From: Rhododendron vialii | Taxonomy: Eukaryota > Streptophyta > Magnoliopsida > Ericales > Ericaceae | Assembly (NCBI RefSeq): GCF_030253575.1 | Contig: NC_080565.1 | Coordinates: forward strand, 9,361,001 to 9,425,000 | Length of the DNA: 64,000 nucleotides | Reading direction: 5' to 3' | In this document: in pieces, positions 12,265-48,912 of the stretch | How positions within the stretch are numbered: the stretch's first letter is position 1 | Layout: each line of letters begins with the position of its first letter | Position numbers and translations under genes: made by a program | Notes under the pieces: generated by a model | The model's input: the letters and a program-made list of their open reading frames with translations, nothing else | What the model was told of the DNA's origin: nothing | Database searches by the model: none

Positions 12265-12276
12265 TGGTATCAGAGC
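12265..12276 (+). other. Primer-binding site, initiator tRNA-Met type
   Basis: TGGTATCAGAGC, three bases after the LTR end, is the complement of the 3' end of plant initiator tRNA-Met and is the standard primer site of many plant LTR elements. Confidence 0.93.
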
Positions 12277-12765: not shown

Positions 12766-12861
12766 CCCCACCACCACTTCCATCTCATCATCTTCCTCAC
12801 CATCATAACTCCTCCAAATCTCCATCATATCCTATCAAGCCGAACCGAACCGAGCCGAGCC

Positions 12862-15273: not shown

Positions 15274-15312
15274 ATCTATAGTCACGTGCCAATTTCGGGG
15301 ACGAAATTGTTT

Positions 15313-15326
15313 TAAGGGGGATAGTT
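15313..15326 (+). other. Polypurine tract
   Basis: AAGGGGGATAG lies directly upstream of the 3' LTR, the expected priming site for plus-strand DNA synthesis. Confidence 0.85.
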
Positions 15327-16206: not shown

Positions 16207-16246
<40 letters not shown>

Positions 16247-18246
16247 CCGAAAGTGAGAGAGTGAGATGGAGTGTGTGCTTGTGTTTGATTACTTACACAA
16301 GCAACATTTATAGCCTTAAGCCTATTTTTGACCACTTGCCAACCCATTTCTAGTCTTTCAAAGTACAAAGCTAGGCCATGATTATATTCCTTCTTGCAAG
16401 CAACCTCCCCATAGACTTGACAAGTCAAAAACCCTTCATGATGGCCTAAGATTTGGCCTAAAATGGAAGTGACAAGTCATGGAAGGCTATGACTTGATTG
16501 AAAGACTTGAAATGACCACTTAATGGAGCAAATCCATGGGAGAGAGAGAGAGAGATATGGCTGGCCATAGAGGAGGGAGGAGGAGCTCAAGTGTTGGCTA
16601 TAAATAGCACCCCATGTCTTCCATTCAACTCACACCCTCACTCAATTGCCATTTCCATTTTCCAGACAGCTTACTGCCCTTCACGAATCCTCATTTTTCT
16701 CCTGCTTAAAATAGTTTTTGGAACCAACTCCCTTCGGAAAAGTTGTAGAGCACTTCGAAACCTTCAAGTTAGAGCCAAGAACCACCCCAATCGGTGAAGA
16801 AATGACAAAGATATTGGCATCCGAAGTTCAGTAAAAATCTCGGATTTCCATTTCCAGACAGCATACTGTCTCTTCCTTTATCACCATTTTTCTCCTACCT
16901 AAAGTAGTTTCTAGGATCAACTTCCTTCACGAAAGTCGTAGAGCACTTCAAGAGCTTCAACTTCGACCCAAGAACGATCATATTCGGCCAAATACTGACC
17001 GAGTTACTGCCATCCAAAGTTCGGTCCAGATTTGCGAGTTTCACCACCCGTAAAATCTTCCAACTAGCTTATTCGGCCCCGACTAGTTTCGGATCAAGGT
17101 AAATTATTCTTACCCCTAACTCTAAGTTTATCCTTACTCACTTACTTACTTATTCCAAGTAAAACGTATGTTGTTTGATCTTTAAGAAAAAACGGTTTTC
17201 GAAAGTTAAAACGTTACCATGTGAATCGAAGTATTCGTATTTTGATATTCCAAGGAGTATGAGCTTACATACATAAATCGAATGTGTTACTTGTAGTATA
17301 TTATAGAATTGGATGATCTTGTTAGAATGTTTCATGCTTACTTTTGTCCTACCGCGGAGTCTTTGCATGTAAACGAGACACGAGAACCGAGAAAGTAGAA
17401 ACATGGCACCTAGGGTGTGATAAATGAAAGGAAATGTTTTCCGAAGAAGGAAATATTTTTGAAACTACATTATGACCGGTTTTGGTGGCATAATGTGAGT
17501 TGGGTGTGTGTTCCAATGGAGATCCGGAATAGCGGAACCATTGTGAGGTTGTGTGCGTTCCCATGGGAACCCGGACCGGCGGAACCATGGTGAGGTATGG
17601 CTTGGTTATCCGCGGAGAGGAGCCAATGCAAGATTTTGTGTGCCAATGGGAACCCGGTGCGGCGGAACCATTGTGAGGATACTCGGGAGACCGGAACGGC
17701 GGAACCGAGGTTGGGTGTGTTAAACAAATGATTTTTGAAAGATTGAGTTGTAAATGAAAATGTTGACACGGTCTACGACGAGTCGCGTAGGAGAAACACG
17801 GAAATCTTGGACACCAACGATAGATGATTAACGAATATGGGTGTGTCATTGTTAGCTATATATACATGTATCATGTGGAAATCGATGATTGTATAACCTG
17901 TTGTTTGTAAGTTATGGGTTAGCGGGTATGGGTTTGTTCTACTGAGCTTTTGTAGCTCACGGTGTTACCTTTGGTGACCCTGACATATTATATCGGTGGC
18001 GACGCTGGTATAATGTGTCAGACTTTGTAGATGATCAAGGTGAGCAGTACACCTTGGAGGCCTTTGGAGCTGAAGAGTTGGCTCAGATGAAGGAGCAGGC
18101 GGAGCTGTAGTTAGGGACCTTAGTTTCCCTTCCCTTGTGTAATAAAAGTACTCTCATGAGAGTTATGTTGTAATAATGAGCTAGACTCACTTTGTTTTTG
18201 CAATAAAATGTTTTCTTTAACGTACCCAAAAATTCGGGGCGTTACA
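15327..18246 (+). repeat. 3' LTR (2920 bp)
   Basis: Same length, ends and internal ORFs as the 5' LTR at a constant 5985-bp offset. It is followed by GTTTA at 18247-18251. A full base-by-base alignment would be needed for an exact age. Confidence 0.95.
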
Positions 18247-24879: not shown

Positions 24880-26845
24880 TTAAAAAATCATCCTAGAAGC
24901 CCTACAAACTTATGATTTCATCCTGCCTCCTCCGCTACTTATGTTTCCGTCCTTGAACTACTTTGTATACCGGTAATGCCCTTTTGTTGTTATATATATA
25001 TATATATATATATATCGCTAAATTTTGGGACGAAATCCTAACCCATTCCGTCCTCGCGAGAATCTCGACTCCTCCAGCTACCAGATCTGCAAAAATCTCG
25101 CGTGTACATCCCAAAAATTCCTCCCCCAATCCTTCCCCATAAATTCCGACTTCTAATCCCAAATTCTTCCTCCCAAAATTTCCTCCACTCAACCCATCAC
25201 AGTCCCCATCACCGGCGGCTCTCCATCTGGACCACTCCCTATCGTCGACGGCTCCCCCCACTGGTCCTCACCGCTACTGATGCCACAACCGGAGAGGCGG
25301 CAAAACCAAGGCGCTCAACAGATTTTGTCAGGGTGACACAACCCATCTGGAGTCCTGGACAGCGGCGAGGAAACCAGCGGTGCCCGGCAGATCTCAGTCC
25401 CATCACCGACAGCTCTCCTTCTGGAAAATATTGTTGCTTCAACTATGGTCTTTTCTTATTATGTCTTCATTTAGTATTGTTTCTCCAATCACGAACTGTG
25501 CAAATTGGACTTTTCCAGTCTTACTTTGTTTCTACAAATCGAGAAGTATGTATGCATGAAGTTGAGATTATATATAGGCGGCTCCCCACTGAATCTTGGT
25601 CGGTTCTCCGAGAAATCATGAATTATGTATTGTCCATTGTGGGTTCATGCCAATACTCAAGTATTCTGATTTGGGTTTCACCAAGAAAACTTGATTTTGG
25701 TTTATTTTAGTTTTATATTTCAATTCATGGTAAATTATTAACATCATTTACCATGAAGCGAGTTTGTCTGTAAGCTTTGTAAGAATTAAACTTGAAACGT
25801 TGAAATCGACATGGTAATTTAATCATGAAATGCTGATCATGATAATACTTGTTTTGATGGTAATTTGACCATATTTCATAGAATAAGATCAATTAAAAAT
25901 GTGACCTTTTTGAATAATATGTGAGCATTTTACTGTGATTAATACATGCAAAAAATATGGTCAACTTATCATGTTAATTTCATAAAACATGGTCACTTTA
26001 TCATGGCTAGTTGGCCAATACCTATAATCCATGAAGTTGATGGCCAAAGACCTTTTCATCGTGAACATTAATATTCGCCAACGTTTCATGGTTGACTATT
26101 GTGCGAGCGGAACAGAATACACATGCTATGTGCTCAAAATAACAAACATAACAATCAAGTGGAGATCTTGATTGCGTAATACTATGAGATATAGATTTGA
26201 CAAAATGCTTCGAACGAAACTATTTAATACTCTACATGTGAATATACAAATTGTATCAGGAATTCGAGTTTATCTCATAACTTCGACAAAGTACGTACGT
26301 GAGTGCTTATCTATATCCTACGTTGCGATTATGAAATGAGTGGCTTTTATTTTTGATTGGCGTGAATGGCCTTTCTCTACGACAAATTAAGAACTGGTTT
26401 ATATATATACCACCAAAACTTGTAGGTAACATGGTTAATAATATTCTGCAATGATTGATAATGCTGAAATGTTCATGTACGTATTCGATACATGTTGCAC
26501 GGTGGAATCACTGGAGCAATTCATGATGAACAGGGCTTTGGGCATCTGCTTTGTGGAATATAAATGGAATGAGAAATCAGTGGGATTTCTTGTTGGAAAT
26601 TTGAAATTTTGAAAATTCTCATCTCTTCCCCTGTTATATCTCACCTAATTCCATAGGTGATTCCATATTCAACCCATCTATTTCCCATAGATTTAGGAAA
26701 TAGTTTTCATCAACAACACCCCCCCCCCCCCCCCCCCCCCCCCGCATAAATGTGTAAATGTATGTATATTTAATATAGGGCTCCTTGTTTATAAGGACAT
26801 ACTATAGGGTTTAACAAGCAATTAGTCCATCTAAAGAATTTATAG
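24880..26845. other. No gene recognised; microsatellites and a C25 run
   Basis: Contains a TA repeat (about 24991-25015), a GC-rich stretch at 25030-25430 with a 202-codon plus ORF (25102-25710) lacking any recognisable domain, AT-rich DNA with repeated CATGGT/ACCATG words (25730-26060), and a C-run of 25 (26719-26743). I see no promoter-gene structure. Confidence 0.5.
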
Positions 26846-27229
26846 CGGCTCCAGTCCTTTTTATCACACGCGTTCTAAAATTACCCATATTACACGCGTT
26901 TTCAAAAACATTTCAGAGACGAAAAAACCTAATCGCGGTCTTTCTCGTCGATCCTTTCACGGTCGTCATCGTCGATCTTTTCATCGTCGTTGCCATCATC
27001 GTTATTGTAGGCGTTCCTTTCACCATCCCTGTCGTCATCTTCGCTGGTTTTCGACCATTTCAACAGGTAATTTAACTTTTGTATTCGTTGCTATTGTCAT
27101 CGTGAACAGCGTCATTCCGATCGTCGTCACTTTCCTAGGGTTTTAGCGTCATTTACTGGTTTTGTCACTTTCTTTATGTTAGGGCTCATCAATATGTTAA
27201 ATATTGTGTAATGGAGTATTTGCATGTGT

Positions 27230-27945
27230 TTACATTGTGATATTCGTATCTCCTACTTTATCCCTTGTTGTAAAATACAACCAGAAAACGTTTTCGATGA
27301 GATAACGTTATCTCTTTATTAAGTTTGTGAGATACCAACACTATTTAGGGCACTATTTATCTGAGATACTATTATCTCTTGCTCATTTTTACCAATACAC
27401 TATATTTCTGGCAGATAGAGTTATTTGTGATATTAATATCTCCTACTTTATTCCTTGTTGTAAAATACAACCAGAAAACGTTTTCGATGAGATAACATAA
27501 TCTCTTTATTAAGTTTATGAGATACCAACACTATTTATCTGAAATACTGTTATCTCTTGCTCATTTTTGCCAATACACTATATTTCTGGCAGATAGAGTT
27601 ATTTGTGATATTAATATCTCCTACTTTATCCCTTGTTGTAAAATACAACCAGAAAACGTTTTCGATGAGATAACATTATCTCTTTATTAAGTTTGTGAGA
27701 TACCAACACTATTTATCTGAGATACTGTTATCTCTTGCTCATTTTTGCCAATATACTATATTTCTGGCAGATAGAGTTATTTGTGATATTAATATCTCCT
27801 ACTTTATCCCTTGTTGTAAAATACAACCAGAAAACGTTTTCGATGAGATAACATAATCTCTTTATTAAGTTTATGAGATACCAACACTATTTATCTGAAA
27901 TACTGTTATCTCTTGCTCATTTTTGCTAAGATACTGTTTTCTCAT
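27230..27945. repeat. Four-copy tandem array (about 178-190 bp unit) with palindromes
   Basis: Equivalent palindrome positions 27237, 27427, 27605 and 27783 give units of 190, 178 and 178 bp. Each unit carries three palindromic sites (GTGATATTAATATCTC, GAGATAACRTTATCTC and a GARATACTRTTATCTC form), plus TTGTTGTAAAATACAACCAG. It lies directly upstream of the Ulp1 gene's first coding exon, where a promoter or 5' UTR intron would be. A CAG acceptor-like site at 27957-27959 suggests a 5' UTR intron. Confidence 0.9.
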
Positions 27946-27971
27946 CTGTTTTAACAGGAAAAAGATTCAAA

Positions 27972-30900
27972 ATGATACAAAACCCTGAAAATCCTCCTGA
28001 AAACCCTGAAAACCCTCCTGAAAACCCTGAAAACCCTCCTGAAAACCCTGAAAACCTTCCTGAAAATCCTGAAAAACCTAGAACATATAAAAGATTCAAA
28101 ATGATAGCCCGGAAGAAGACTACAAAGAAACCACAACATCAAGAAGAAAAAAGCATAAAAACAAGGAGTCAAACAACAAAGAAAAGGAAAGAGGAAGAGA
28201 CAGAACCACAACTTGAAGAGGAAGAGAGAGAAGATAAACCCAAGAGCAAAACAAAAAGACAAAAAAGACAAGAAAAAAAGGAGGAACCAGACATAGAAGA
28301 GGTGAAGGAAGAGGAGGTTAAACCAAAACGTTTGCAATACAGGTAACTACTTGGCGTGCCATTCTATACAATAACCTGAAGGTGTTATTTTTTTGAGATA
28401 CTGTTATCTCTTGCCTCATTTTTGCTGATATACTGCTATTGTCTTGTTACTTTTATTATAGGTCGAATCTTTACAGCATTGTAAGCCTTCTACATGATGT
28501 AAAGTTCAATGAAGTACAATCCGAACAGATTCAGAAATCACCTTTTGCGAACATGTTGTTTGCAATTACTCAAGGCAGTATTGATGAGCAAATGGTGAAG
28601 AAATCTGATCCTGTCCTTATCAAGTTGATAGAGACATATAAGAGAGGTCAAGCAAAGTTTTCCCTAGCAAGAAAAGATATTCCTCTGACTGATCATGACA
28701 TTGGTGTCATTTTTGGAATAACATCTGGACCGGTGAAGATCCACATCGCAACCCACGGGCGAAGGCCAGACACAGAATTTGCCAATCGAGTCTTTGCTGG
28801 GGCAAGCACCATGCACCTTTCAACAATGAGGGTGACAATTGAAAATATTTTGAAACCTCCCGTCAAGAAGAAGCAGAAGAAGAAGCAAAAGCAAGTATCA
28901 GAGATAGAAGCTGCAAAAGATTTGGCACGTCTTCTGACATTGTACACCATTGGAACACTGTTTTTCCCAACAACAGGTCCAAACCTGAATTGGTCCTACC
29001 TGAAGCTTGTTGAGGATTTGGAAAATAGTGCAAATTACAATTGGTCAATGTTCATCACCAATAATCTTGTTAACGAACTCAACTCCAAGAATCCGGCGAT
29101 TGTTGGTGGTTGCACCACTGCACTCCTGGTAAAAATCTTCTACCCTTTCTTGTAGTAAAATATCAACAACATCTGACACATATTTTCATTGAAAACAGTA
29201 TTGGCTCTGTGAACATACCCACATTATGGAACCAGCTCAACAAACTTTTCCAAGATTTATGAAATGGAAAATGAATGAGCTTGCTGCTAAACTGTTGGAG
29301 GCACCACTGAGCAGCCTTCCAGAGGGAATGGTAAGCATCATTACCTATTGGATTTTATTATGTATTATGGTCAAAACTAGATAACGGTATCTCATCAAAA
29401 ATAGTGTATCTACCAGAATAAATCAAGAGATAATGCTATCTCAAACAATAAACTCTATATAAACACACAAAAAGAAAGAGATACCAGTATCTCAGTCAAA
29501 TACAGTTTGCAAATAAAATGAGACATAACTCTATCTTAGTTGAAACATTAAATCTCATGAATCTATAATCTGAATTTACCTCTTTTAATTCATTGTTCCC
29601 TTCTACTCTCAAAGGTCAAACAGGAAGAATTGGAGCTAACTGAACGGGAGAGAGGGTTGTTTGCAGCTCTAGTCTTGCACGAACAAAAAGGTACACACAA
29701 AGAACCCGAAGCCAAAGAGAAAAACCTTACGGACCAAGAGCCTTTAACCCAAGAAGAAAACCCTCAAGAAGAGAACCAGGATGTTAAGAATTTGATTTTA
29801 GAGCTTGAACAACGAATTAAGGTGCTTGAAGAAGAGAACAATGTCATGAAAGTTGAAATTGAAGATAGGGACAAGAAGATCCAAGAAAGGGATCTGTTGA
29901 TTGTTGAGTTACGCCAGAATGTAGAATCCCTTCAACATGAGCTTTCAGGTTATAGAAAACAAAATGCAGATTATACAGATATTGAAAAAGAAACTTGTAG
30001 TCTGCATGTTGAGGTGGAGATGTTGAAGGAAGACATAATCGAAAATGAGGTTGAAATAGGCGGGTTGTATGTTGAGAAGGACATAGCGGAAGAAAAAATT
30101 GAAGAGGTGACAGAAGAGTTGCATGACATTGCAGCACATTGTGTTTCCCAACATTACAAAGATCAGAAGATAATTGAAGAGTTGCAGAAACAAAAAAACA
30201 GCTTGTCTGAACAAAAACAAAGCGAGAATGTGCACCATCATGAATCTCCAATTCATGATGAAGAAGTGACTGAGGAAGAAATAGACCAAATGATCAAGTC
30301 CACAATCTCAAGCATTCAAGCAGAACCACAACAAACAACGAAGAAGAGATTGAGGAAAGGTCATACTGTGGACCCATCGTCGTTGACAAAGAGAGTGAGT
30401 AAGAGGGAAGATAGGAAAGGGAAGAACATGGAGGATTTTCAAGTCTATGGGAAGAAGAAAAGCACAGAGAAACAAGCAGAGAAAGCATCTCCAGAACTAC
30501 CATATATGGGTGTTGAAACAACAAAGCTGGCACATCTTGTCCCAGAAAATGACAAGATCTTCTTAAATCACATATTTGAGTGTGAGAAAGACATCAGGTT
30601 AGTAAAAATGCACCAATTTGCTTGCTCAAATAGATGTTATTTGTCTGAAATACTGTTATCTCTTGATTCATATTCATTGCTGATGTACTGCTGTTGTCTT
30701 ACAACTTTGCAGAATCCCTATCTGGGATAACAACCTCTTTGATGGTACAGTAAGCTTGCAAGAAGTCATAGAAATCTTGAATGAAAAAGATGTACAAAAC
30801 ACGGTAAGAAAGGCTCCTTGTCTTTCTCAAACCGTACCCCTCCGGTACTCTTTATCAATCCCTCGCTTTCCATTAATTCTTAGCTCTTAGTTTATTCGGT

Positions 30901-32364
30901 TTATTTGGGAATTGAATTGGCTGACATTTACATTGTGATATTACTATCTCTTGCTTTATCCACATTCGCATGTGTATACATTGTACTACCAGTAAATTCT
31001 TTGGATGAGATAACATTATCTCTTTATTAAGTTTGTGAGATACCAACACTTTTTATCTGAGATACTGTTATCTCTCACTTCATTTTTGCCAATACTCTAT
31101 ATTTCTTCAGGACTGTTACCAATCTTTTGTGCATTTAAGTCTCACATGAAATAATGTGTGCAGCTCATCGATTCGTTTACATTCATATTGGAAAGAGAGC
31201 AAGGAGATGAAAGTAAAATACTATTTTTCAAATCCATATTGTGGGTAAGTAAAGCACTAGTCTCGCATGACTACTTGATCTCTGTATCTATTGCTTAAAT
31301 ACATGTTATTTTTCTGTAATACTGTTATCTCTTGTTCACATGCACTGTTTTTTCTCACAAAGAACAACAGATAAGAATATCAAAAACATATTATGTGTCT
31401 GAGATACTGTTATCTCTTGCTTCTCATATACTGTTTTTGCGCACAAAGAACAAGAGATAAGAATACCTCACGAATTCTATGTTCTGAATTATCCATTAGA
31501 AACCATGAGATATGGTTATCTCAACTGGTATATGGTATGTATTTTGTTGCATGTAATTTGTAAAACACTTCCTTCTGACAGAGCCTACTGAAGGACCAGA
31601 AAAATGAGGTCAGAAAGATGTTCCTTGATGACAAGCTGCTAGAACTCATTCAAAAACAGCATGCCTATCGCTACTTGGTTTTCCCCATGAATTCCTCAGG
31701 AGGTAATAAAGAGAACGACAACGATCCATACCATTGGACTGTCCTGGTTTATGACATTGAGGATGGGCAATGGAGGCATTACAACTCCATCAGACCAACT
31801 GGAAGAAAGGCAGATGCATACCTTAAAGATGCTCGTTTAATGGTAAAAATACTGAGACTTCTTGTAATCCATACTTAAATGACGCAAAAATAATAATAAA
31901 CAAATATTTAACCTTGCAAATGCAGAAAAGGTATGTTGAAGGATTCGTGAAGAAAAATCATACCCCAACATTCATCCTCTCATCACAAAACGAAACAATC
32001 TTTGAAAAGCAAAAGTTTGATGCTCCAATAATCTCACCTGCATCTCCGCAACAAAGACCTGGAACGTAAGCCAATTAATCATGTTCAGCATCTTATTTCG
32101 ATACTACTATGCACTGTGTTATTTCCTGTGCACTCTATTTCTATCCTTCTAAACTCTGATTATGACAACTTTTGCAGTGTTGACTGTGGAATTATAGTTT
32201 GCTACATCATTGACAAGCTTGCACACGGAGAAAGCATCCCTGAGTCATTGACAACTGATGAAATCAGAGAATACAGAGTGTTATTGTTGATGAGGTTCCT
32301 GTATGATGAACCAAGAACATGGACAGAAGCTCTTTGGAAAGACCGAAACTTGAAGACTGACTAG
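27972..32364 (+). CDS. MULE-encoded Ulp1-like (C48) cysteine protease fusion, nine exons, 970 aa
   Basis: Exons: 27972-28342, 28462-29128, 29199-29330, 29615-30597, 30713-30803, 31164-31244, 31582-31842, 31926-32065, 32178-32364. All introns are GT..AG and the frame stays open throughout. Order: PEN-rich repeats (about residues 3-36), a lysine/glutamate-rich basic segment, a DUF1985-like region (about 125-390, with DHDIGVIFGI and YWLCEH), a long coiled coil (about 440-600), a basic linker, and a C-terminal Ulp1 peptidase domain. The peptidase has H826 (in HWTVLVYD), Q904/Q905 and C912 (in VDCGIIVC). The usual catalytic Asp position reads N843 (HYNSI). Such proteins may cleave SUMO or related conjugates. 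In VANDAL MULEs, DUF1985-bearing proteins include anti-silencing factors, so a DNA-binding regulatory role is possible but inferred. The first ATG is provisional. Confidence 0.82.
29378..29493. promoter_or_regulatory. Palindrome cluster in Ulp1 intron 3
   Basis: GAGATA-N4-TATCTC sites start at 29378 (one mismatch), 29427 and 29478 (both exact). The composite word TATCTACCAGAATAAA precedes the second. A more degenerate copy follows at about 29522. Confidence 0.85.
30647..31522. promoter_or_regulatory. Palindrome clusters in Ulp1 introns 4-6
   Basis: Sites at 30647 (one mismatch), 30935 (one mismatch), 31007, 31059, 31401 (exact), 31454 (one mismatch) and 31507 (exact). All lie in introns; the exons between them (30713-30803, 31164-31244) contain none. 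The 30935-31074 part repeats the upstream tandem unit. Confidence 0.85.
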
Positions 32365-32384
32365 GTGTTGGAAAGTTGAATAGG

Positions 32385-33345
32385 ACTAGGTGTTGGAAAG
32401 TTGAATAGGTATTCTTTTGCTGAATAGGTGTTCTTTTGTTAAAAACTGACACATATGAATGGTCGACTCCGAACAATTGGAATTCGCCATACCAGGGTTG
32501 TACATGAAATGTCTTGGCTGCTCTGTTAGAAGTACGATAGGTGTTCTCTTTTGTTAAAACTGACACATATGAATGGTCGGCTCAAAACAATTGGAATTCG
32601 CCGTACCAAGGCTTGTATATGAAATGTCTTGCCTGCTCTGTTTTGAATTACAGTAATTGTTCTTTTGTTTAAAACGATACCTATGCATAGTCGGCTCCGA
32701 ACAATGGGAATAGCAGGTCATCGTTTTGTTATGATAACAATTCTGAATCTTTTCATTTGATATATAACTGATGCTGCGAAATAGTCTATCTACCAGAATA
32801 CAGCTAGAGATAATGCTATCTCAGAGAGAAAAATCTGTATCAACACAAAATTTAAAAGAGATAAAAGTATCTCAGCCAATACATTTCGCAAAATAGAATG
32901 ACAGATAAAGCTATCTCATACAAAACATTCTTTGTGAACCTTTCATTCAATAGTTGTTCTTTTGTTAAAATTGACACATATGAATGGTCGGCTCAGAACA
33001 ATTGGAATTCGCCGTACCAAGGCTTGTATATGAAATGTCTTGCCTGCTCTGTTTTGAATTACAGTAATTGTTCTTTTGTTTAAAACGATACATATGCATA
33101 GTTGGCTCCGAACAATGGGAATAGCAGGTCATCATTTTGTTATGATAACAACTCTATATCTTTTCACTTGACACACAACTGATGCTGCGAAATAGTCTAT
33201 CTACCAGAATAAAGTTAGAGATAATGATATCTCAGCCAATAAAATCTGTATCAACACAAAAATTAAAAGAGATAACAATATCTCAGCCAATACATTTCGC
33301 AAAATAGAATGACAGATAAAGCTATCTCATACAAAACATTCTTTG
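32385..33345. repeat. Tail-to-tail spacer with ~411-bp direct repeat and palindromes
   Basis: Between the two convergent genes, a block (about 32552-32935) recurs at 32954-33345 with an offset of 411 bp, and a partial earlier copy lies at about 32436-32545. Each carries CACATATGAATGGTCG and AATTGGAATTCGCC. Palindromes start at 32807, 32858, 33218 and 33269 (exact) and at 32902 and 33313 (one mismatch). Confidence 0.85.
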
Positions 33346-33482
33346 TGAACCCTAAACCCATAAACTGTAAAACCTAAACATGCTCTGTAAAAACAAAATA
33401 AAATATATATCAATATCTCAGCCAACGTTCAACCTTTCATTCAATGTCCAATGAATATGAATCAACAATAGAACACAATGAA

Positions 33483-35907
33483 TCAATCACAAGCTTCCTT
33501 ACATCTCTTCCTATTATGATTTCCTAACTTCTTGCACCTGCCACACCTTATTTGCCTCACCTTCTCACCCCTTGACCGGATTCTTGCAACCTTGAGTCTA
33601 CCACGTGGCCTCCTAGTCTTAGGAGGAAGAATAAGAGGAAGAATAACAGCAGAATTTTCAGACACTGGTGCAACTCCAAGAGTAGAAATAGGAACAGGAT
33701 GTATAGGACAATCGTAGCAGAATCGGAAAGCATCAGCAGTGTATAATGGATCAATATAATTGGATACATCTATGCCATTCTTCTGAAGAGTTGTGAATGC
33801 ATGCACACAAGGGAAACAATAGAGCTGCCAACGACAACATGTGCATGTCCTGTTTCTTATGTCAACCACAACAGCTGGTAATGAAGACACTTCAAAAACC
33901 TCATCACTTGATCCAAACACAGTCCATGTCCGTCCTTTATTAAAGAACTCTCTCAATTTTGCATCATATTCAGGACACAAAACACTGTTCAATTTTCTTG
34001 ATAACTGTTTCCTTTCACACATTTGAGTCATGATTTGAACCCTGATCGTATCAACACATTTAAGGACTGGCAACTTACGAGCTTCAACAATCCAGTTGTT
34101 GAAAGACTCCACAGCATTTGAGGTCATTTCCCCATATCGTTTACTTGGGAAATATGCATTTGCCCAATTATACACTGGAATGGAAGCAACAAACTCCTTA
34201 GCTCTGTCTCCACCGACCTTAAACAATTCGTTTACACAGTTTTTAAAATCTAATACTGTAGGTGCAAGAGCACAATCATTGAAAAGACTCACTACTCGTT
34301 CCCGGAAACCATTAGGTGCTCTTCCTGACATCCTATCCCTCAAGTTATTCTTCAAATGCTGCAGACAATAAGAATGATATCCGTTTGAGAAAACCTCTGG
34401 CACATGCTTCACAAGACCAGTATGGCGATCTGTTATGAAAGTAAGTTCACGAGCTGACAGAATAGATCTCAACTTCAACAAAAACCAAAGCCAATTATCG
34501 TCGGTCTCGGAATCAACAACACCATAAGCAACCGGAAACAAGCCTGCCCAAAAAAACAACAGATAACAGTATCTCAGCTATAACAGTCTCTGTATCTACC
34601 AGAATGAAGCAAGAGATAATGACATCTCAATAAAAACAGTCTCTACAAACCAAAATAAAGCAAGAGATAACGGTATCTCAGGAAAAATAGTCTCTGTATC
34701 TACCATAATAAAGCAATAGATAACGCTATCTCAGCCAATAATCACAAAACTAAAAAGAGAGATAACTCTATCTCAGTATAAGCATTCTCTGAATTTGAAA
34801 AAAAAAAAAAAACTAACCGTTATCAGCATCCTTCCCAACGGCTGCGAGCACAGTTCCCTTATATCTCCCTGTCAAAAAAGTACCATCAAGACACAAAAAA
34901 GGCCGACAGTAGTTGAATCCTTTGATGCATGCATCGAATGCCACAAATAACCTTCGAAACCGATTATCTTCACAGCATTCAACGTCCACAACACTACCGG
35001 GATTTTTCTCCTTCGCTACCTCCGCATACAATCGAAGTTTGTTAAATGACAATGCATAATCACCTTGAGTATCATTGTTCGCCATCTCAATACCTAACCA
35101 TGCATGGTGATAACCGATTGTAGTACCGTATCGTTGTCTGAAGAATCTAACAGCATCTATAGGCTTATACGACGCCTTTGAACGAACTTCATCAAGAACT
35201 TCTTCTGCAACAAGCTTTGAAGACATCCGAGAATTTTTTGAATTACAAATTGTAGCACCACATCTGTGTTCTTTTTCAAGCTCCTTAATGCAAAAAAATT
35301 GATTTGATTTGTCTAGAATTGCATGAACAAACCATTTACACCCATCTGCCTTAAAAGCACACTCAGCTGTCACTCTTGATTGGTCATTCTTCAAATACTT
35401 GAACCTAAATCCAACTTCAATTGCATACTTACACAAAGATAACCTAAAATCCTTAACACCACCTCTAAATTCTTGACCAACATGACTAATCAAATACGCC
35501 CAATCAGCAGAAAGTCTTTTTGTCTCATGATGAGGACAAAATTTTTCAAGAGGATCCTCAACAATTTCAGAATGTGAACTACTAGTTACTCCACCATTTC
35601 CATTGCTACTACTGCTTTCACCGATTTCAAAACGGCTACTAACTCTACAATTACCATCTTCAACTGATACCTCGACACAACGAGCACCATATGCAGCAGC
35701 TAAATCCATCATATTACAAAAATCATCATCATTCTCAAGGAGTATATTACGATGATCACAAACAGAATACAACAACCTCATTGATACCAAACCATTCCAC
35801 TTGTTAGAAATACTTCCAATAAGATTCTCAAATTGATAACCTTCTGTCACCTTAACAACAAGACTATAGGATCCATATTTGCACAATAGAAGAATAGAAG
35901 AATCCAT
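33483..35907 (-). CDS. Mutator-type (MuDR/VANDAL-like) transposase, two exons, 716 aa
   Basis: Exon 1 is 35907-34818 and exon 2 is 34543-33483, with a GT..AG intron rich in palindromes. The N-terminus has a PB1-like leader (SYSLVVKV), a serine/glycine linker, and a MuDR DNA-binding region around FRLSLCKYAIEVGFRFKYLKN. The MULE catalytic domain has D341 (CLDGTF), D402 (FITDRH) and E509 (NAVESFNNW), a complete DDE set. A SWIM zinc finger (C597, C599, C609, H611) and a C-terminal Cys-rich knuckle (CGRCKKLGNHNRKRC) follow. It cuts and joins transposon ends in the nucleus. The frame is uninterrupted, so it could be active. A 10-residue extension to 35937 exists, but a CAG acceptor there suggests an upstream 5' UTR exon, so I start at MDSS. 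Confidence 0.9.
34560..34774. promoter_or_regulatory. Palindrome cluster in the transposase intron
   Basis: Sites start at 34560, 34613 and 34717 (one mismatch each), 34664 and 34759 (exact), spaced 53, 51, 53 and 42 bp. TATCTACCAGAATGAAGC or a close relative precedes several. The near-constant spacing is about five helical turns. Confidence 0.88.
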
Positions 35908-35938
35908 TTCAACTTCAAAAACCAGTTCAGTCTGCAAA

Positions 35939-36390
35939 CAGATAACATTATATCAGAATAAACAAATCAGATACACATATCTCAAAAAAGTAGTCTATCT
36001 ATGAGAACAAAGCAATAGATAATGTTATTTCAACAAAAACAGTCTCAGTATCTACCAGAACAAAGAAATAGATATAATGCTATCTCAGCAAATAAACAAA
36101 AATAGAAAGAGATAACAGTATCTCAGAAAATACAGTTCACTGTGATACACATATCTCAGCAACAATAATTTCTGTATCTACCAGAATAAATCAATAGATA
36201 ATGTTATCTCAACAAAAAAACAATCTCAGTATCTACATAACAGTATCTCAGAAAATACAGTTCACTGTGATACACATATCTCAGCAACAATAATTTCTGT
36301 ATCTACCAGAATAAATCAATAGATAATGTTATCTCAACAAAAAAACAATCTCAGTATCTACCAGAATAGAACAATAGATAACGCTATCTC
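35939..36390. promoter_or_regulatory. Palindrome array upstream of the transposase gene
   Basis: Sites at 35968, 36142, 36195, 36267, 36320 and 36375 (one mismatch) and 36109 (exact), plus more degenerate ones near 35939 and 36012. A 126-bp direct repeat (about 36117-36235 and 36243-36361) holds two sites per copy. The array occupies the likely promoter/5' UTR of the minus-strand gene, mirroring the array before the Ulp1 gene. Confidence 0.85.
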
Positions 36391-36402
36391 AGCAAATAAA
36401 CT

Positions 36403-36968
36403 CTATAAAACACAAAATAGAAGAACACAGCAAAAATCAAAACAAATACTGAGATAGTGAAGAACACAGCGACAGAGAAACATCAGCACAGAGATCGCGA
36501 ACAGAAAACACTCCGAAGACAAAAGATCGTGATCCTGATCGGGAGAGATCGTCACAAAGCGAAACGAGATCGTGATCGCAATACAGAAACGAAATCGTGA
36601 AAGTGATCGTGATCCAAAAAAGAGCTGTGATCGCAGGAAGAGAGAGAGAGAACTGAGCTGTGATTGCGGGAAGAGAGATAAATAGAGAGAGAGAGAGAGA
36701 GAGAGAGGCGCACCAGAAACGAGCTCGATCTCGTGATTGTGCTGCTCGAGATCCAGAAATGGTGCCCTATCCAGTAATGGCGCGTTGGGTTGAAAGCAGC
36801 AGGGAACAAAATTTAAACATAACACATTATATATACACACCAGTCAGGGCATTTTGGTCTAGAAACGGACTGTAGACCTAATAAATGTTACAGTAATGGG
36901 CCTTCACCACTATTACACATTGGGTTGGACTAAACACCCAAAAACACCTTTAAAACGGACTCTAGCCC
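36403..36968. other. MULE right subterminal region
   Basis: Contains GATCGTGATCG-rich sequence, a GA microsatellite (about 36684-36708) and two related words near the end, AAACGGACTGTAGACC (36864) and AAACGGACTCTAGCCC (36953). No coding exon is seen; probably transposase 5' leader and terminal sequence. Confidence 0.6.
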
Positions 36969-37145
36969 AATTTACCGTTTAATTATGGATATAAAATAGA
37001 ATAAAGGGTAATAAAGGTAATTTACATATTACAAAGATGAAAACATAAGCATGAAAAAAGGGGGGGGATGAATTCTTACATAGCATGAAAAAAGAGGATG
37101 GATATTTAAATATTCCAAAAATATTCTGCAAGCATTCGGAATCTC

Positions 37146-38337
37146 TGATAGGCGGGTAAATGTTCACATACGCACCCCCTAATTATCCATGGTAAGTCTA
37201 TTTATATATTATTACTTGGTGATTTATGCTTTTATTTTTGTTGTAGGTATTTGGAGGATTTAGTACAAAAAGCACAAAGTTAAAATATTAAACGATGTTC
37301 GAAGCTGATCTGTTTAAAGGTCATATGGAGTCAAGAATTTAGCACTGGACTAATTAGTCCACGGGCATCACTGAGGAAAATGATTTGCAATTCAATTGGG
37401 TGGGCCCAATGTTTATTAGTTGACTGAATGGTGTGCCATGGAGTAAAAGGTTGAAGTCGGCTGGGAATAATTAAAAGGCGGAAAACATAGGGCTGCACCA
37501 TATATAAAAGCAGAGCCACGCACATAACGAAGAGGCATCACGATAAACAGAGAATGGAGAAAGGCAGTGTGGTGCGCATATCAAGAGACTGGCATTCTAC
37601 AATAGCAGTGAACCAAAGCAAATTATTGTAATGATTTGCCTTCCGATGTCTGGCTAATCCCCTCTTCTAGGACGGAGATGAAGCTCAAACTCGGAGTAAT
37701 AATGTTAGTATTTTGATTTAGTATTTTATTATTCAAATCGTGGTTGTATGATATAAGGATTTATTTGCGATATTAATTTTTCCAATCACATCTTGTGTAT
37801 GAATTCCTGAGTTTTATGCACGTTCATACAACAGTTCTTAATTGTTTTGTGATAACTGAGTAAGATGGGTTATGCTTCTTAAGACGCACTATACTATTAG
37901 ACGATCTGTGCCATAGAGACGGATTGTACTAGTAAGACAGTTCATGCTAGGCGACGATACCCCATGCTATTCGGGGATTCATGATAATCTTTAGGTGATA
38001 CTGTAAGGCCCGCGAACCCTAATGATATCCGGACTGATTCAAGTAATTAACCTTTGTCATCGCATAAATATTGTTACAATGGGAAGTGGATTCGAAACCC
38101 TAGATTTTTCTCTCATAAATTCTCTCACTTTTTATTGCTTATTTTTATTCAGCTTTAAATATTTTAGAACTCAAACAATCAAATCTCTTTCCGAATTAAT
38201 TTAGAAATCAATTGAAGCAATCACAACTTAGCCTTCGTAATCCCTGAGGACGATACTCGAAGTACTTACCGCTATCTTTTAGGTAGTAGTAATTACTCTT
38301 TCTATTAATTATTTTTTATACAGAAATGACACGATCA
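37146..38337 (+). repeat. 5' LTR of the Athila-like element
   Basis: TGATAGGCGGG... to ...ACACGATCA, preceded by ATCTC. A TATATAAAAG box lies at 37501-37510. Its partner is 45127-46313. Confidence 0.9.
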
Positions 38338-39672
38338 AATTTTGCACCTCAAGTAATTGACTCATCCATTTGCATGCACCGCATTCATTGCGAAAATAAT
38401 GCAAAACCATCAAGAGAGATGCAAAAGAGGTTGAACCCTAAAATAAAGGAGGTCGTTATGAAGGAGGTGGTTAAATTGTTGGACGGGTATCATATACCCC
38501 ATCTCTGATAGTAAATGGGTGAGTCCTACTCAAGTAGTGCCCAAGAAGTCAAGCATCACTGTCGTTATGAATGAGAAGGGTGAGCTCGTGCCCGCACGCA
38601 TGACAATAGGTTGGCGTGTGTGTATTGATTATAGAAAGCTCAATGCCATGACTAAGAATGATCATTTTTCACTTCCATTTATTGATCAAATCCTAGAGAG
38701 GTTAGCAAGCCAGAGCTTTATTATTTTTTGGATGGCTATTCCGGATATAACCAAGTGGCCGTCAACCCAGCGGATCAAGAGAAAACTACCTTCACCTGTC
38801 CTTATGGTACTTATGCTTATCGGCGCATGCCTTTTGGCTTATGCAATGCACCCGCGACCTTTCAAAGGTGCATGATGGCTATCTTCTTTGATATGGTGGA
38901 GGACTTTCTAGAAGTATTCATGGATGACTTCTCGATCTTTGGGGCCTCTTTTGATTCATGTCTCCAAAATCTTGCCCAAGTGCTCAAACGCTGCAAAGAG
39001 ACTAACCTGGTCCTCAGTTGGGAAAAGAGTCACTTCATGGTTCATGAGGGGATTGTTTTGGGCCACATAGTGTCCAAGAGGGAGATTGAAGTTGACAAGG
39101 CAAAAGTTGACTTAATTTCTTGACTTCCTCCCCCTTCATCAGTCAAGCAAATTTGCTTTCTTGGGACACGCTGGGTTTTACAGGCATTTTATCAAGGATT
39201 TTTCTAAAATCGCCAAGCCCTTGTGTGATTTTTTAGCTAAGGACACCCCCTTCATTTTTGATGAGGCTTGTATGAGAGCTTTTGAGAAGCTCCGTGAGGC
39301 ATTGTCCACAGCACCAATCATGCAGTCCCCCAATTGGTTTTTGCTCTTTGAAATTATGTGTGATGCATCCGACTATGCAGTCGGTACTGTATTGGGCCAG
39401 TGGGTTCACAAGGTCCCTCAAGCCATTTATTATGCGAGTATGACCCTCTCTGATTCGCAGTTGAACTATACCACTACAGAGAAGGAATTACTCGCTGTGG
39501 TCTTTTCCTTTGACAAGTTCCGGTCCTACCTTTTAGGGTCAAGGTCATAGTATACACTGATCATGCTGCTCTGCGGCATTTGCTTTCTAAGAAGGAGACC
39601 AAACCTAGGTTGATTAGGTTGATTTTGCTCCTCCAAGAGTTTGATGTGGAGATTTGAGACAAGAAGGATCTG
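38338..39672 (+). pseudogene. Athila-like reverse transcriptase and RNase H, degenerate
   Basis: Starts CMHRIHCENNAKPSREMQ, meets a stop near 38506, resumes with WRVCIDYRKLNA, then in another frame DGYSGYNQVAV and RRMPFGLCNAPATFQRCM, and has an FMDDFSIF active site (about 38918-38942). A stop at about 39121 separates an RNase H part (39161-39550) with GHAGFYRHFIKDF and CDASDYAVGTVLG. The frame breaks again near 39548, and the coding homology is cut by the solo LTR at 39673. Several stops and frameshifts make it non-functional. Confidence 0.92.
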
Positions 39673-45126: not shown

Positions 45127-46313
45127 TGCGATAGGCGTGTTAATGTTCACATACCCGCCCCCTAATTTATCCTTGGTAAGTCTATTTATATATTATTACT
45201 TGGAGGTTTATGCTTTTATTTTTGTTGTAGGTATTTGGAGGGTTTGGAACAAAAAGCGCAAAGTTAAAATATTAAACGGTATTCGAAGCTGGTCTGTTTA
45301 AAGGTCATATGGAGTCAAGAGTTTAGCACTGAACTAATTAGTCCACGGGCATTACTGAGGAAAATGATTTGCAATTCAATTGGGTGGGCCCAATGTTTGC
45401 CATGGAGTAAAAGGTTGAAGTCGGTTGGGAATAATTAAAAGGAGGAAAACATAGGGTTGCATCATATATAAAAGTAGAGCCACGCACATAACGAGAGGCA
45501 TCACGCATAACAGAGCCACAGAGGACGGAGAAAGGCAGTGTGCTGCGCATATCGCGAGACTGGCATTCTACAATAGCAGCGAACTGAAGCAAATTACAGC
45601 AATGATTTGCCTTCCGATGTCCGGCTAATTTCCTCTTCTAGGGTGTAGATGAAGTTCGAACACAGAATAATAATGTTAGTATTTTAATTTAGTGTTTTAT
45701 TATTTAAATCATAGTTGTATGACATAAGGATTTATTTGCGATATTAATTTTCTAATCACATCTTGTGTATGGATTCCTAGGTTTTATGCACGTTCATACA
45801 ACGGTTCTTAATTGTTTTGTGATAACTGAATAAGATAGATTATGCTCCGTAAGACACGCCGTGCTATACGATTCGTGCCATAAAAACGGATAGTATTAGT
45901 AAGACGATTTGTGCTAGGCGGCAATACCTCATTCTATTCGGTGATTCATAGAAATCTTTTGGCAATACCGTGAGGACCCACGAACCCTAACGATATCTGG
46001 ATTGATTCGAATAATAGACCTTTATCATAGTATAGAAATTGTTACAATGGGTCGAGTGGATTCGAAACCCTAGATCTTTTCTCTCATAAACTCTCGTTAG
46101 TTCTTAATTGCTTTAATTTAATTTAGTTTTGAATATTTTCGAAATCCAACAATCAAATCTCTTTCTGAATTAAGTTAAAAATTAATTAGAACAACTGCAA
46201 TTTAGCCTTTGTAATTCATGAGGATGATACTCGAAATACTTATCACTGTTCATTTGAGTAGTAATAATTGTTTTGTTTTATAAATTATTTTTTATGCGGA
46301 AACGACATGGTCA
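45127..46313 (+). repeat. 3' LTR of the Athila-like element
   Basis: TGCGATAGGCGTG... to ...GACATGGTCA, followed by ATCTC. Diverged from the 5' LTR by many substitutions and small indels. The TATA box is at about 45466. Confidence 0.9.
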
Positions 46314-46383
46314 ATCTCCGTCCTAACCTTCTTTGCTAGGGGCCAAGCAGTAGTTTGGTTAGATTTAGCAACACAACAGAATG

Positions 46384-46760
46384 AGGAGACTGGCTATTCG
46401 CAAGGAAGATTTGTAGGGAACCACGCAATGAGGAGACTTGCTATTCGCAAGGAAGATTTATAGGGAACCACGCAAGGAAAAAACGCGTTTTGTCACATTC
46501 TGGGTCCCACAAAAAATTAGAAAAATATCTATAAATTTTTGAATATTATTTTATGGGACCCTATAAAAAATCAGCTCAAACAGTTTCACCCCTACGAATC
46601 TAAAAGTAATACTTACCGATGTCCGTTGGAGCTGATTTTTTATAGAGCCCCATAAAATAATATTCAAAAATTTATGAATATTTTTCTAAATTTTTGTGGG
46701 ATCCAGAATGGGCTCAAACGCCTTTTTTCTTACGTGATTCCCTACAAATCTCCCTTGCGA
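46384..46760. mobile_element. Foldback/MITE with ~130-bp arms and duplicated left end
   Basis: Bases 46445-46577 are the near-inverse of 46628-46760, from TCGCAAGGAAGATTTATAGG / CCTACAAATCTCCCTTGCGA inward to AAAAAATCAGCTC / GAGCTGATTTTTTA; the loop is about 50 bases. The left outer part is duplicated: CTATTCGCAAGGAAGATTT...GGGAACCACGCAA occurs at about 46393 and again at 46441. No coding content. Confidence 0.8.
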
Positions 46761-48912
46761 TTAGAATTTCCGATGAGATTGCGTTGTGGATAAAGACGTT
46801 TTGCAAAGAAAGTGGTAGGGAGATTACGAAGCGAAAAACTCATTTCCCTTTTCATCCTCCATGTGTATTTTTGCTTAATAATAAAGGCGTATAGGATATA
46901 GTTATGCAGTTCTATTGCTGAATAACGTCACTAGAAGGCTTGTTGTGTCTTCTATTGAGGCTGGTTCTTCTATGGTTTTATTTTTAGGTATATAAAGCTT
47001 TTCATGTTTTGTATTTGGAGAGTTGTGCTTGGTTATCCTTTCAAGTCAAATTGGCATTGTTGGTTTCACTGCAGTTGCGTTTCCTTGTGCGCAACACCGA
47101 CGTTGATTTTGACAGAAATTATTCAGCTTTTTGAGACAACAAAAAATATGAACGCAATAAAATCAAAACTCAAAACTTAGAAGTCTATGAAAATATCATA
47201 GTGATCAAGGCAAGTGTGACACTCTATACTTGAGACAATTCCGCCCCCACTACGGTGCTTACAGTTTGCATTGGACGCCTGTCTCCCAACACTACTTGAT
47301 CAAAATCCCTCCAAAGCAGCACTACAATTGAAGGCTCTGGCGAACCAAACTTGTTTTTGCACTCTTTCATATGGAAGGACTTTGACTCAATGAAACCATT
47401 AGAAAAAATTATCCACACAAAATGATGAGGGGCTTTGTATTTATAAACCAACTGATCACCAGGGGAAAAGACACTTTTGTTCATTAAAAACACGCCCGTC
47501 CACGATGACCTGGTGTCATTCAAAAGACACGTTCCAAATCAAATCAATTTACATTCCCACCCTATTCGGCCCACTACGCCAGCATACAAAACAGGGTTGG
47601 AAGCCATGTAACTGGTGCTGTGATTATCACAATAGCGTTGAAATATGTCGCTCAAGCTTTTATAGAAGACGAGTAGTTGAAATGGTCTTAGAACAATTTG
47701 AGCTGAAAAGTACTACTCGGACTCATCACTATATTGAGTGACAGTAGGTTATTTCTTAGCACTTCAGAAGACCAACAGGGGACCCCCAAAAACACATAAA
47801 ATGAAACACGCAGAGCTCTACTGCCGAGTAAGGTCAAAAGGCCATCATCCATTGTACCTTCAAAATCACACAAGAAACATCTTATAGCAATATGATGACT
47901 CGTATGTCAACTGAGTAGTAACGAAGGAGTAACATGATCATTACATATGCAGGCATCAAGTACAAAAAGATACAACAAACTGAAAGCACTCAGTGGAGTC
48001 AGAGCCTAAAGCAGCAACATCAGAAGTGAACAGATCGGCTTGGCACATAGCTATGGACTCGAGTAGTGATGGAATTGCAAATGGAACAGATGAAGGTCAG
48101 GGACCAAGTGCATGGGACCCATATCCTAGACCTCAGGCCACAATTACAAACCCATTGCCAACAGTAGAAATGAAAGGCTAGACAAGGGCTGGTGTGAACC
48201 TGCCAAAACCAAAAATCGAATGAACGGGATAACCAGCAGTAAACCCAACCCATAGAGAAGCATACAAAAGAAGTACAAGGGCCCTAAGAAGCTGATTTTT
48301 TAAATCAACAAGCTTGCAGTCCTATTTTGAAATGAAAATAAAGATGAGCAACTAGACAATTGTCTGCGTGGGCTTATTGTGAATCTGAATGTATCATGAA
48401 ACCATGCTAAGACACCTGCAACTAGTGGTAATCTCAAGAAACTTCGCCCGGTAGGACCCGACGTGAAAATGTGTTACAGATGAAATTCTCATTCAGATTC
48501 TTTATACTACCTTGTACGCACACACTTAAGGAAGAAAATAAAATAAGAACTGATCTTTCATTTCCTCTGCAGTGAATGGGGCCGGATTCATAGGCAAAAT
48601 AAGAAAATAGAGAACAAAAAGGAATAAAACAGGATACCCACATATTAGACCAACAAAGGGAATAAAATTGTGCATCTCTGTTTCCCTGTGACAGAAAAAT
48701 ACCTGCCTTCGCTTCTAAGTTCTAACTTATGATAAATGATATGCCACTAATGAGGACGAAACATGATTAATTGGGAGATCACCACCATTTCCAGTATGCA
48801 TTATTCAACTCTATACTTTGTTTTGTTTTTTGAAAGGGATTCATAAACGCTATGCACAGCCGCAATTTCCCTTCAGGCTGCAAGATTCCATCTGGAAAGA
48901 GGAGACCATAGC
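46761..48912. other. Mostly anonymous DNA
   Basis: Apart from the tentative minus-strand ORF at 47224-47523, nothing is recognised. Small frames at 47505-47741 (plus) and 47993-48181 (plus) lack domains. No repeats of note. Confidence 0.4.
47224..47523 (-). CDS. Unrecognised 99-codon ORF or exon
   Basis: Reads VFSPGDQLVYKYKAPHHFVW and later LLWRDFDQVVLGDRRP, ending with TGA near 47224. It looks protein-like, and an ATGACACCAG acceptor-like site at about 47510 suggests it could be a terminal exon, but I recognise no family and see no upstream exon. It could equally be a gene fragment carried by a transposon. Confidence 0.25.
   Translation of the reverse strand: MNDTRSSWTGVFLMNKSVFSPGDQLVYKYKAPHHFVWIIFSNGFIESKSFHMKECKNKFGSPEPSIVVLLWRDFDQVVLGDRRPMQTVSTVVGAELSQV

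Follow-up and report, generated by a model that had tools for sequence, protein, structure and literature searches.

In the window (the whole stretch of 64,000 nucleotides analysed), we observe a Mutator-like element (MULE) of Rhododendron vialii with a MURA-type transposase gene and a VANC-like gene, whose noncoding DNA carries arrays of the inverted dyad GAGATA-N4-TATCTC, and the arms of this dyad have been retained in places where the flanks diverged. The best-supported reading, which we hold to be moderately probable, is that the dyads are self-recognition sites bound by the 970-aa product of the VANC-like gene in a VANC-type anti-silencing system. In this mechanism the protein, with its PMD/DUF1985-like domain, probable coiled coil and Ulp1 domain, would pair as a dimer; its sites would be the A-GAGATA-AYRN-TATCTC-A arrays in the promoter regions, introns and spacer; and the bound protein would oppose host DNA methylation of the element copies, as VANC does for VANDAL.

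The element and its two genes

The element lies at 26800..37000, limits that are approximate only, and holds two convergent genes without premature stops. Missing or degenerate terminal inverted repeats and a 9-bp target duplication are VANDAL traits; here the similarity between the left and right ends is weak (shuffle p about 0.10), and the many 9-10-bp direct repeats are mostly expected by chance, with no convincing target duplication among them. A blastn search at E 1e-2 found no second copy of the element elsewhere in the window.

The VANC-like gene (27972..32364, plus strand) comprises nine exons (27972-28342, 28462-29128, 29199-29330, 29615-30597, 30713-30803, 31164-31244, 31582-31842, 31926-32065 and 32178-32364) with GT-AG splice sites and an open frame of 970 aa. 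Residues 806-934 match the Ulp1 C48 domain (Pfam PF02902; 21.9 bits against a cut-off of 20.7, E 1.7e-4), the Asp of the triad being read by eye as Asn (YNS). The protein is 99% identical to R. vialii P0001 across 88% of residues 120-420, the region used in the search, and its homologues were confined to Ericaceae among the matches listed, one search covering the best 7,983 candidates. Neither DUF1985 nor PMD matched the 970-aa protein at E up to 1. In a scan of eight homologues (E up to 10), the counterparts of its N-terminal domain matched PMD weakly in four (P0001, 0.006; P0004, 0.0023; P0006, 0.0018; P0008, 3.4e-5) and DUF1985 in one (P0008, E 0.049), all under the Pfam cut-offs; DUF287 was listed for none of the eight at E up to 10, nor for the window protein at E up to 1.

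The structural model of P0008 contains a predicted helix of 180 residues, the only reliable part of that model (mean pLDDT 51), which fits a probable coiled coil in the 970-aa protein. The model of the exon-2 domain of the latter reached a mean pLDDT of 59, with a best PDB match at E 1.8. By sequence, the best PDB match to the Ulp1 part was the splicing factor SAD1 (0.0037) and the remainder gave 0.31 or worse, while a PDB search with the alignment profile returned nothing under 0.056.

The transposase gene (33483..35907, minus strand) has two exons (35907-34818 and 34543-33483) and encodes 716 aa with no premature stop. Its two ORF pieces, scanned apart, contain DBD_Tnp_Mut, MULE, SWIM and PB1 domains, a C-x2-C-x4-H-x4-C knuckle was read by eye at the C-terminus, and the protein shares 99% identity over 94% with R. 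vialii P0009. CpG observed/expected in the element is 0.43 in exons and 0.45 in noncoding DNA, a depletion of the interior from which it follows that lasting protection from methylation is probably absent, a point against the anti-silencing reading.

Enrichment and placement of the dyad

The initial annotation had counted, by eye, 18 exact and about 23 one-mismatch copies of the dyad and none in any exon, and the recount bears this out: all 18 exact copies in the window lie inside 27230-36390, together with 24 of the 25 copies with one mismatch and 7 of the 10 with two. The other 55 kb holds a single one-mismatch copy, so the density is not shared by the flanking DNA. The resulting set of 49 dyads (18/24/7 at zero, one and two mismatches) overlaps none of the 11 exons (5,064 nt). 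Since many dyads are tandem duplicates, in units of 178, 411, 125, 86 and about 52 bp, the 42 exact and one-mismatch copies are not independent sites. The enrichment in the noncoding DNA of the element is nevertheless far beyond chance, as joining the noncoding parts and shuffling them 200 times by dinucleotide yielded no exact site, no one-mismatch site and a mean of 0.305 two-mismatch sites. Of the element's 20 perfect 6-N4-6 palindromes, 18 are GAGATA, and with tandem copies collapsed GAGATA is the top enriched 6-mer (50 seen against 2.95 expected); AGATA-N5-ATCTC is the commonest spaced pair (5+5 bases, gaps of 1-29 tested, tandem copies collapsed). TATCTC occurs 41 times within dyads and nowhere else in the element's noncoding DNA.

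Per-position information content is inflated in the arms because the sites were selected by their arms, and a mismatch-count test was run to reduce this bias. It revealed a cliff: seven sites with three mismatches (shuffle mean 3.44, sd 1.93) and 16 with four (shuffle mean 17.99), with counts at four to six mismatches at chance level and those at three slightly above it. This distribution bears on the possibility that the dyads belong to a neutral, functionless minisatellite, a unit of about 52 bp with a chance palindrome, spread by unequal exchange. The abundance of tandem duplicates suits such an origin, whereas neutral decay would predict a tail at three to five mismatches.

An array of 13 sites with two mismatches or fewer, partly in a 178-bp tandem, precedes the VANC-like gene at 27237..27943 (minus strand). 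Within the gene, sites occur in intron 1 (one, exact, 28395..28410, minus), intron 3 (four, 29378..29537, plus), intron 4 (one, with one mismatch, 30647..30662, minus), intron 5 (three, 30935..31074, minus) and intron 6 (four, 31316..31522, in mixed orientation). Between the ends of the two genes, the spacer holds seven (32807..33419, plus), six of them within a 411-bp tandem duplication; the transposase intron holds five, spaced 42-53 bp (34560..34774, plus), and the transposase upstream region eleven (35939..36390, plus), partly in a 125-bp tandem. The description of the motif as present in all noncoding parts therefore stands for the upstream regions, the spacer and introns of both genes, but has to be narrowed: introns 2, 7 and 8 of the VANC-like gene (70, 83 and 112 bp) contain no dyad site, and neither do the outer ~400-600 bp of the element on either side, its ends being approximate.

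One module direction is found in six of the seven compartments holding at least two sites, intron 6 being mixed, under an orientation rule that partly used the A after the right arm and with two tied sites, at 36142 and 36267, taken as plus. Of the two 5' arrays, each is an inverted copy of the other, and both face outward. Outward-pointing inverted arrays are common in the subterminal repeats of transposons, and this arrangement, like the DBD_Tnp_Mut domain of the transposase, would agree with the dyads being the transposase's own sites, internal and subterminal repeats that serve transposition and not anti-silencing. We consider this unlikely, given that dyads also occupy five of the eight introns of the VANC-like gene, the transposase intron and the spacer, and that the dyad-free outer stretches are where the transposase must act.

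The three densest compartments are the two 5' regions (17.5 and 21.4 sites per kb) and the transposase intron (18.2 per kb). A high density in both 5' regions would also be expected of enhancer-like arrays through which host GATA-type zinc-finger proteins drive both genes. WGATAR is the consensus of GATA-factor sites; each dyad arm has a GATA core, GAGATAA includes the WGATAR site AGATAA, and the noncoding DNA of the element has 4.5 WGATAR per kb outside dyads, compared with 2.4 in the flanks. Shuffles of the same fragments, however, give 12.5 non-dyad WGATAR (sd 3.5) against the 15 seen, which is no enrichment, and 37.2 non-dyad plain GATA (sd 5.7) against 46. The sites keep their GA extension and N4 dyad arrangement, and they occur in the spacer and introns too. 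Host GATA-factor sites are thus a disfavoured reading, and a decidedly improbable one.

Fine structure of the site

The two arms of the dyad are offset by 10 bp, roughly a single turn of the helix. The site is not a full palindrome but a quasi-palindrome: read in module orientation, its spacer tends towards A-Y-R-N (A in 38, Y in 40 and R in 44 of the 49 sites), the right arm is followed by A in 49/49, an A that the orientation rule partly used, and the left arm is preceded by A in 38 sites and by T in five. As a third half-site, TATCTA or TATCTC sits exactly 20 bp upstream of 14 of the 49 dyads. The form GTATCTACC of this half-site, exemplified at 29406..29414 (plus strand) with further copies at 34592, 34696, 36048, 36174, 36299 and 36354, occurs seven times in the element's noncoding DNA and never in its exons or in the 54-kb flank, and its reverse complement is found zero times in all three.

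Helical phasing between adjacent sites at 10.5 bp is suggestive only. With 28 of the 39 spacings below 110 bp, chosen by hand to remove tandem repeats, the V-test gave p 0.0002 and the Rayleigh test 0.0019. The V-test p was 0.025 for the 18 distinct values, 0.022 for nine cluster means and 0.013 without the 48-55-bp cluster, and the Rayleigh p for these three reduced sets was 0.07-0.08, the peak being broad.

The palindrome could also be imagined to act in transcripts, as RNA hairpins with a 4-nt loop; a 6-bp stem is possible, and many sites are intronic or close to gene starts. Among 20 hand-picked sites of the 31 with one or two mismatches (tandem duplicates and spacer sites excluded), the 26 altered pairs, read in transcript sense, comprised 24 broken pairs, two wobble pairs and none that had become another Watson-Crick pair. 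As compensatory changes are absent from these 20/31 variant sites, the hairpin was rejected, and we regard it as very improbable. This lack of any sign of RNA pairing, the helical turn between the arms, the probable coiled coil and the VANC-like gene alongside are what make sites of an element-encoded dimer the best-supported reading.

Divergence of arms and flanks

The flanks of the dyads fall into nine families without detectable mutual similarity, five of them single sites, and the largest single-linkage family holds 32 of the 49 sites. The initial annotation had held the arms to be conserved, and in two older paralogous pairs they are constrained: 0/36 arm against 26/122 flank positions changed in the first (p 0.0007), and 3/36 against 29/101 in the second (p 0.012). 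The claim does not extend to the youngest tandem arrays, where arms change like flanks (2/36 v 3/130, 2/36 v 1/110 and 2/36 v 0/77), nor to the older pair of transposase intron and transposase upstream region (8/48 v 13/82, in an alignment with 78 gap columns); an 86-bp pair likewise showed no arm constraint (2/12 v 14/74). Pooling seven of the ten comparisons, young and old pairs mixed, gave p 0.025; two overlapping comparisons and the pair of transposase intron and upstream region were kept out of the pool.

The arrays lacking arm constraint, and the gathering of 32 of 49 sites in one flank family, again favour a neutral minisatellite. Besides the mismatch cliff, the lack of similarity in the flanks of the eight remaining families stands against it, and we rate this origin as quite unlikely.

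Comparison with known systems

VANC21 and VANC6 are published binders of short motifs that recur through the noncoding DNA of VANDAL elements, and VANC has DUF1985 (PMC5735166). Motif binding and demethylation by VANC21 are proven experimentally for Arabidopsis VANDAL21 (Hiun) (Hosaka 2017, PMC5735166), whereas for the Rhododendron element both are predicted from sequence. As far as the available portions of that paper describe it, VANDAL21 resembles our element in being a MULE with a transposase gene and a DUF1985-type gene, the domain here being weakly DUF1985/PMD-like; in carrying a short motif mainly in intronic, intergenic and terminal noncoding DNA; and in tandem-repeat growth with a single motif orientation per array (PMC5735166). 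VANC21 has repeats in its variable part, and here a 21-bp coding repeat lies at 27979-28079 in the VANC-like gene. The operators differ: the VANC21 motif YAGTATTAY is a one-sided 9-mer (PMC5735166), ours is an inverted dyad whose two arms measure 6 bp each, and the VANC6 motifs AGTTGTCC/AGTTGTAC, in the form given there, are not dyads either (PMC5735166; PMC10398659). Related VANC proteins (VANC6, VANC1) already have different motifs, so that a change of motif between families is expected (PMC5735166; PMC10398659).

Some VANDAL VANC genes have Ulp1, and KIU-carrying Vandals recognise motifs of their own kind, the capture being dated, in the accessible text of a review, to the monocot-eudicot split (PMC13317346). 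Like the Kaonashi (KIU) non-TIR MULEs, our element has a captured Ulp1 domain, here fused to the accessory gene; unlike them, it belongs to Ericaceae, with Ericaceae-only homologues among the matches listed and the altered Ulp1 triad noted above (PMC13317346). VANDAL transposases, in the available text, have SWIM and CCHC fingers, and half of the members carry a PMD and/or DUF gene (PMC6446971). An anti-silencing role for PMD captured by MULEs is a speculation of Ikeda 2017; the homologues resemble PMD-bearing MULEs in matching Pfam PMD, under the cut-off, while the host PMD proteins MAIN/MAIL1, in contrast to what we propose for the element, silence transposons (PMC5418596, PMC7156037). A search of the literature with the motif letters gave nothing about plant transposons among the matches listed, and no Rhododendron or Ericaceae case appeared among the matches listed.

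The initial annotation had proposed dimer-read self-recognition as in VANDAL, by a parallel system with an unrelated operator. The first part remains the best-supported reading, given the dyad geometry and the VANC-like gene; the second is probably wrong. DUF1985 proteins and Ulp1-carrying VANC genes (KIU) are already known from VANC systems (PMC5735166; PMC13317346) and the homologues are weakly PMD/DUF1985-like, so that the system is probably VANC-type in Ericaceae and not an unrelated parallel one, with the operator alone looking different. The alternative, an Ericaceae MULE lineage's own convergent anti-silencing, with a PMD-type protein not descended from VANC, coiled-coil dimers and a helically phased inverted dyad, seems to us conceivable though rather unlikely.

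Significance

If VANC-type recognition by the 970-aa protein is the true reading, self-recognition of the kind worked out in Arabidopsis extends to Rhododendron. The dyad geometry predicts dimer binding and offers a test with one protein and one site. The DNA-reading part of VANC proteins was left for future work by Hosaka 2017, in the available text (PMC5735166), and inverted dyads, which are easily assayed, could reveal that part in VANC-type proteins. Should the activity be real, it might provide a sequence-specific handle on DNA methylation in woody plants.

Distribution and orientation of the site

The palindromic site GAGATA-N4-TATCTC occurs in 18 exact copies in the 64-kb window, all within 27237-36390, inside a two-gene Mutator-like element (MULE; approximate limits 26800..37000) whose VANC-like gene (27972..32364, plus strand) and transposase gene (33483..35907, minus strand) converge. 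By script, 24 one-mismatch sites were counted in the element region vs 1 in the remaining 55 kb, which agrees to about one site with the by-eye tally of the initial annotation. Its statement that exons are free of sites held as well, none of the 49 sites at up to two mismatches touching an exon of either gene. In shuffled noncoding DNA no exact or one-mismatch site arose in 200 trials, and the most enriched 6-mer, after tandem copies had been collapsed, was GAGATA (50 vs 2.95 expected). The claim that the dyad marks an element family is based on a single element copy.

Counted at up to two mismatches, 13 sites lie upstream of the VANC-like gene, 1, 0, 4, 1, 3, 4, 0 and 0 in its introns 1 to 8, 7 in the spacer between the genes, 5 in the transposase intron and 11 upstream of the transposase; the three site-free introns all measure 112 bp or less. 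Density per kb is highest in the 5' regions of the VANC-like gene (17.5) and the transposase gene (21.4) and in the transposase intron (18.2). Read in module orientation, both 5' arrays point outward, and orientation is uniform in 6 of the 7 compartments with at least two sites (two transposase-upstream sites tied and were assigned plus), intron 6 being mixed; the intron 3 array runs opposite to the other left-hand arrays.

Architecture and conservation of the site

The arm centres lie 10 bp apart, one turn of the helix, and a third half-site, TATCTA/C, stands exactly 20 bp upstream in 14 of 49 sites. In module orientation the spacer is constrained to A (38/49), Y (40/49) and R (44/49), with any base in the fourth position, and an A directly follows the right arm in 49/49 sites, unmirrored at the left, although this same A helped to set the orientation. 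Because the spacer is not free and the A is unmirrored, the site is a polar quasi-palindrome. Spacing between neighbouring sites tends to a whole number of turns, with statistics that are suggestive only; helical periodicity of motifs is reportedly a determinant of VANC specificity, according to work by Sasaki in 2022. Isolated arms are scarce, the TATCTA/C half-site excepted: in element noncoding DNA, TATCTC occurs 41 times inside dyads and 0 times outside, and GAGATA 22 times inside and 5 outside, these 5 being copies of one position.

Sites at 0, 1, 2, 3 and 4 mismatches number 18, 24, 7, 7 and 16, against shuffle means of 0, 0.02, 0.32, 3.44 and 17.99; there are almost no half-decayed units, which counts as a point for selection on the arms. 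A second is that the flanks split into nine unevenly filled families (32 of 49 sites in one single-linkage family, five families of single sites), among which no similarity is detected at a 99.9% null cut. A third comes from two older paralogous pairs, whose arms carry fewer changes than their flanks (0/36 v 26/122, p 0.0007; 3/36 v 29/101, p 0.012); the 411-bp pair has the same direction without significance (0/36 v 19/346, p 0.24). Against selection, arm change equals or exceeds flank change in the young arrays of 178 and 125 bp (2/36 v 3/130; 2/36 v 1/110; 2/36 v 0/77), and no difference was found in the 86-bp pair (2/12 v 14/74) or between transposase intron and transposase upstream region (8/48 v 13/82, in an alignment with 78 gap columns). 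A pooled test over 7 of 10 comparisons, with the latter pair outside the pool, gave p 0.025. We read the arms as constrained on the older time scale and slack in fresh duplicates, not uniformly so. When one upstream flank alone was searched, its 11 best matches (up to 4/20 mismatches) included 10 with a dyad (0-2 mismatches) immediately behind them; in the eleventh the dyad was offset by a further 2 bp.

Candidate binders and the encoded proteins

Pairing of the arms in RNA is disfavoured: 20 of the 31 variant sites were compared, and of their 26 changed pairs 24 are stem-breaking, 2 wobble and 0 compensating. Host GATA factors are likewise disfavoured: outside dyads WGATAR occurs 15 times, close to the 12.5 expected from shuffling (sd 3.5), although its density is higher in element noncoding DNA (4.5 per kb) than in the window flanks (2.4 per kb). 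The dyad fits reading by a putative dimer. The transposase is a possible binder, against which stands the placement of the sites, absent from the outer parts of the element and present in several introns and the spacer. The 970-aa protein of the VANC-like gene is the better candidate, since DUF1985-type VANC proteins of VANDAL elements bind similarly placed short noncoding motifs (PMC5735166).

Neither gene model holds a premature stop. Each protein has its best match, 99% identical, in Rhododendron vialii, and the window is accordingly taken as Rhododendron DNA. No convincing target duplication or inverted repeat that would fix the element ends was found in the window sequence. The VANC-like gene comprises 9 exons and 970 codons, ending in a Ulp1 C48 domain. 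By eye its triad (31730-31790, 32178-32195) reads His-Asn-Cys (HWT, YNS, DCG), not His-Asp-Cys; in the Vaccinium homologue P0003 the His part is missing from the gene model. Exon 1 contains a 21-bp tandem repeat (27979-28079) that encodes N-terminal repeats of NPENPPENPE, resembling the repeat-rich variable parts described in VANC proteins. A coiled coil is probable in the middle of the protein, judged from the helix of 180 residues in the structure model of the Vaccinium homologue P0008. Eight homologues were found in all, only in Ericaceae among the candidates scored: a search with residues 120-420 gave 6 proteins, and an alignment-based search 6, of which 2 were new, among the best 7,983 candidates scored. 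Pfam matches, all under the cut-offs, were to PMD in 4/8 and DUF1985 in 1/8, with DUF287 listed for 0/8; the 970-aa protein itself matches neither PMD nor DUF1985 at E up to 1. The 716-aa transposase carries DBD_Tnp_Mut, MULE, SWIM and PB1 domains, PB1, a protein-interaction domain, lying at its start (34818-35907; Pfam E 8.4e-6).

Other features of the window

At 9342-18246, two 2920-bp direct repeats, 100% identical and ending TGTAACG...CGTTACA, enclose a 3065-bp interior, with a 5-bp target duplication, GTTTA; this is a very young LTR element. The sole ORF of at least 150 aa listed for its interior is a Ty3-type gag/protease, and the element may be without pol. ORFs for endonuclease and reverse transcriptase at 462-2856 are probably a non-LTR retroelement fragment, and Copia-type gag and pol pieces lie in opposite orientations at 61453-63266. 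A direct repeat of about 1.2 kb (84%) occupies 37147-38338 and 45130-46314, and inverted self-complementary stretches lie at 55660-56017 and 46441-46764.

CpG record and relation to known systems

The element has a CpG observed/expected of 0.43 in exons and 0.45 in noncoding sequence; TpG is over-represented in both (1.43 and 1.38). Among 4-kb blocks, 28001-32000 is the window minimum (0.35), while 32001-36000 (0.56) exceeds two outside blocks (0.50 each). Against the depleted interior, the margins of the element are CpG-rich (1.67 in the 430 bp of 26800-27229; 1.0 in the 580 bp of 36421-37000). CpG depletion with TpG excess suggests that the interior was often CG-methylated in the past, in agreement with VANDALs being normally silent. 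This record counts against lasting protection and gives no support for continuous anti-silencing.

Within noncoding VANDAL DNA, VANC21 recognises the motif YAGTATTAY and VANC6 the motifs AGTTGTCC/AGTTGTAC, in both cases in tandem repeats (PMC5735166). A 2026 review (PMC13317346) describes Ulp1 (KIU) in some VANDAL VANC genes and dates its capture to the monocot-eudicot split, and half of the members of the VANDAL clade hold PMD and/or DUF (PMC6446971). Anti-silencing as the role of MULE-captured PMD is speculated upon in Ikeda 2017 (PMC5418596). The main text of the two VANC papers searched does not contain the word 'palindrom'. The kind of system is already known from the VANC/VANDAL literature, from which the Rhododendron element differs by its inverted-dyad site, its weakly matching domain and its host family.
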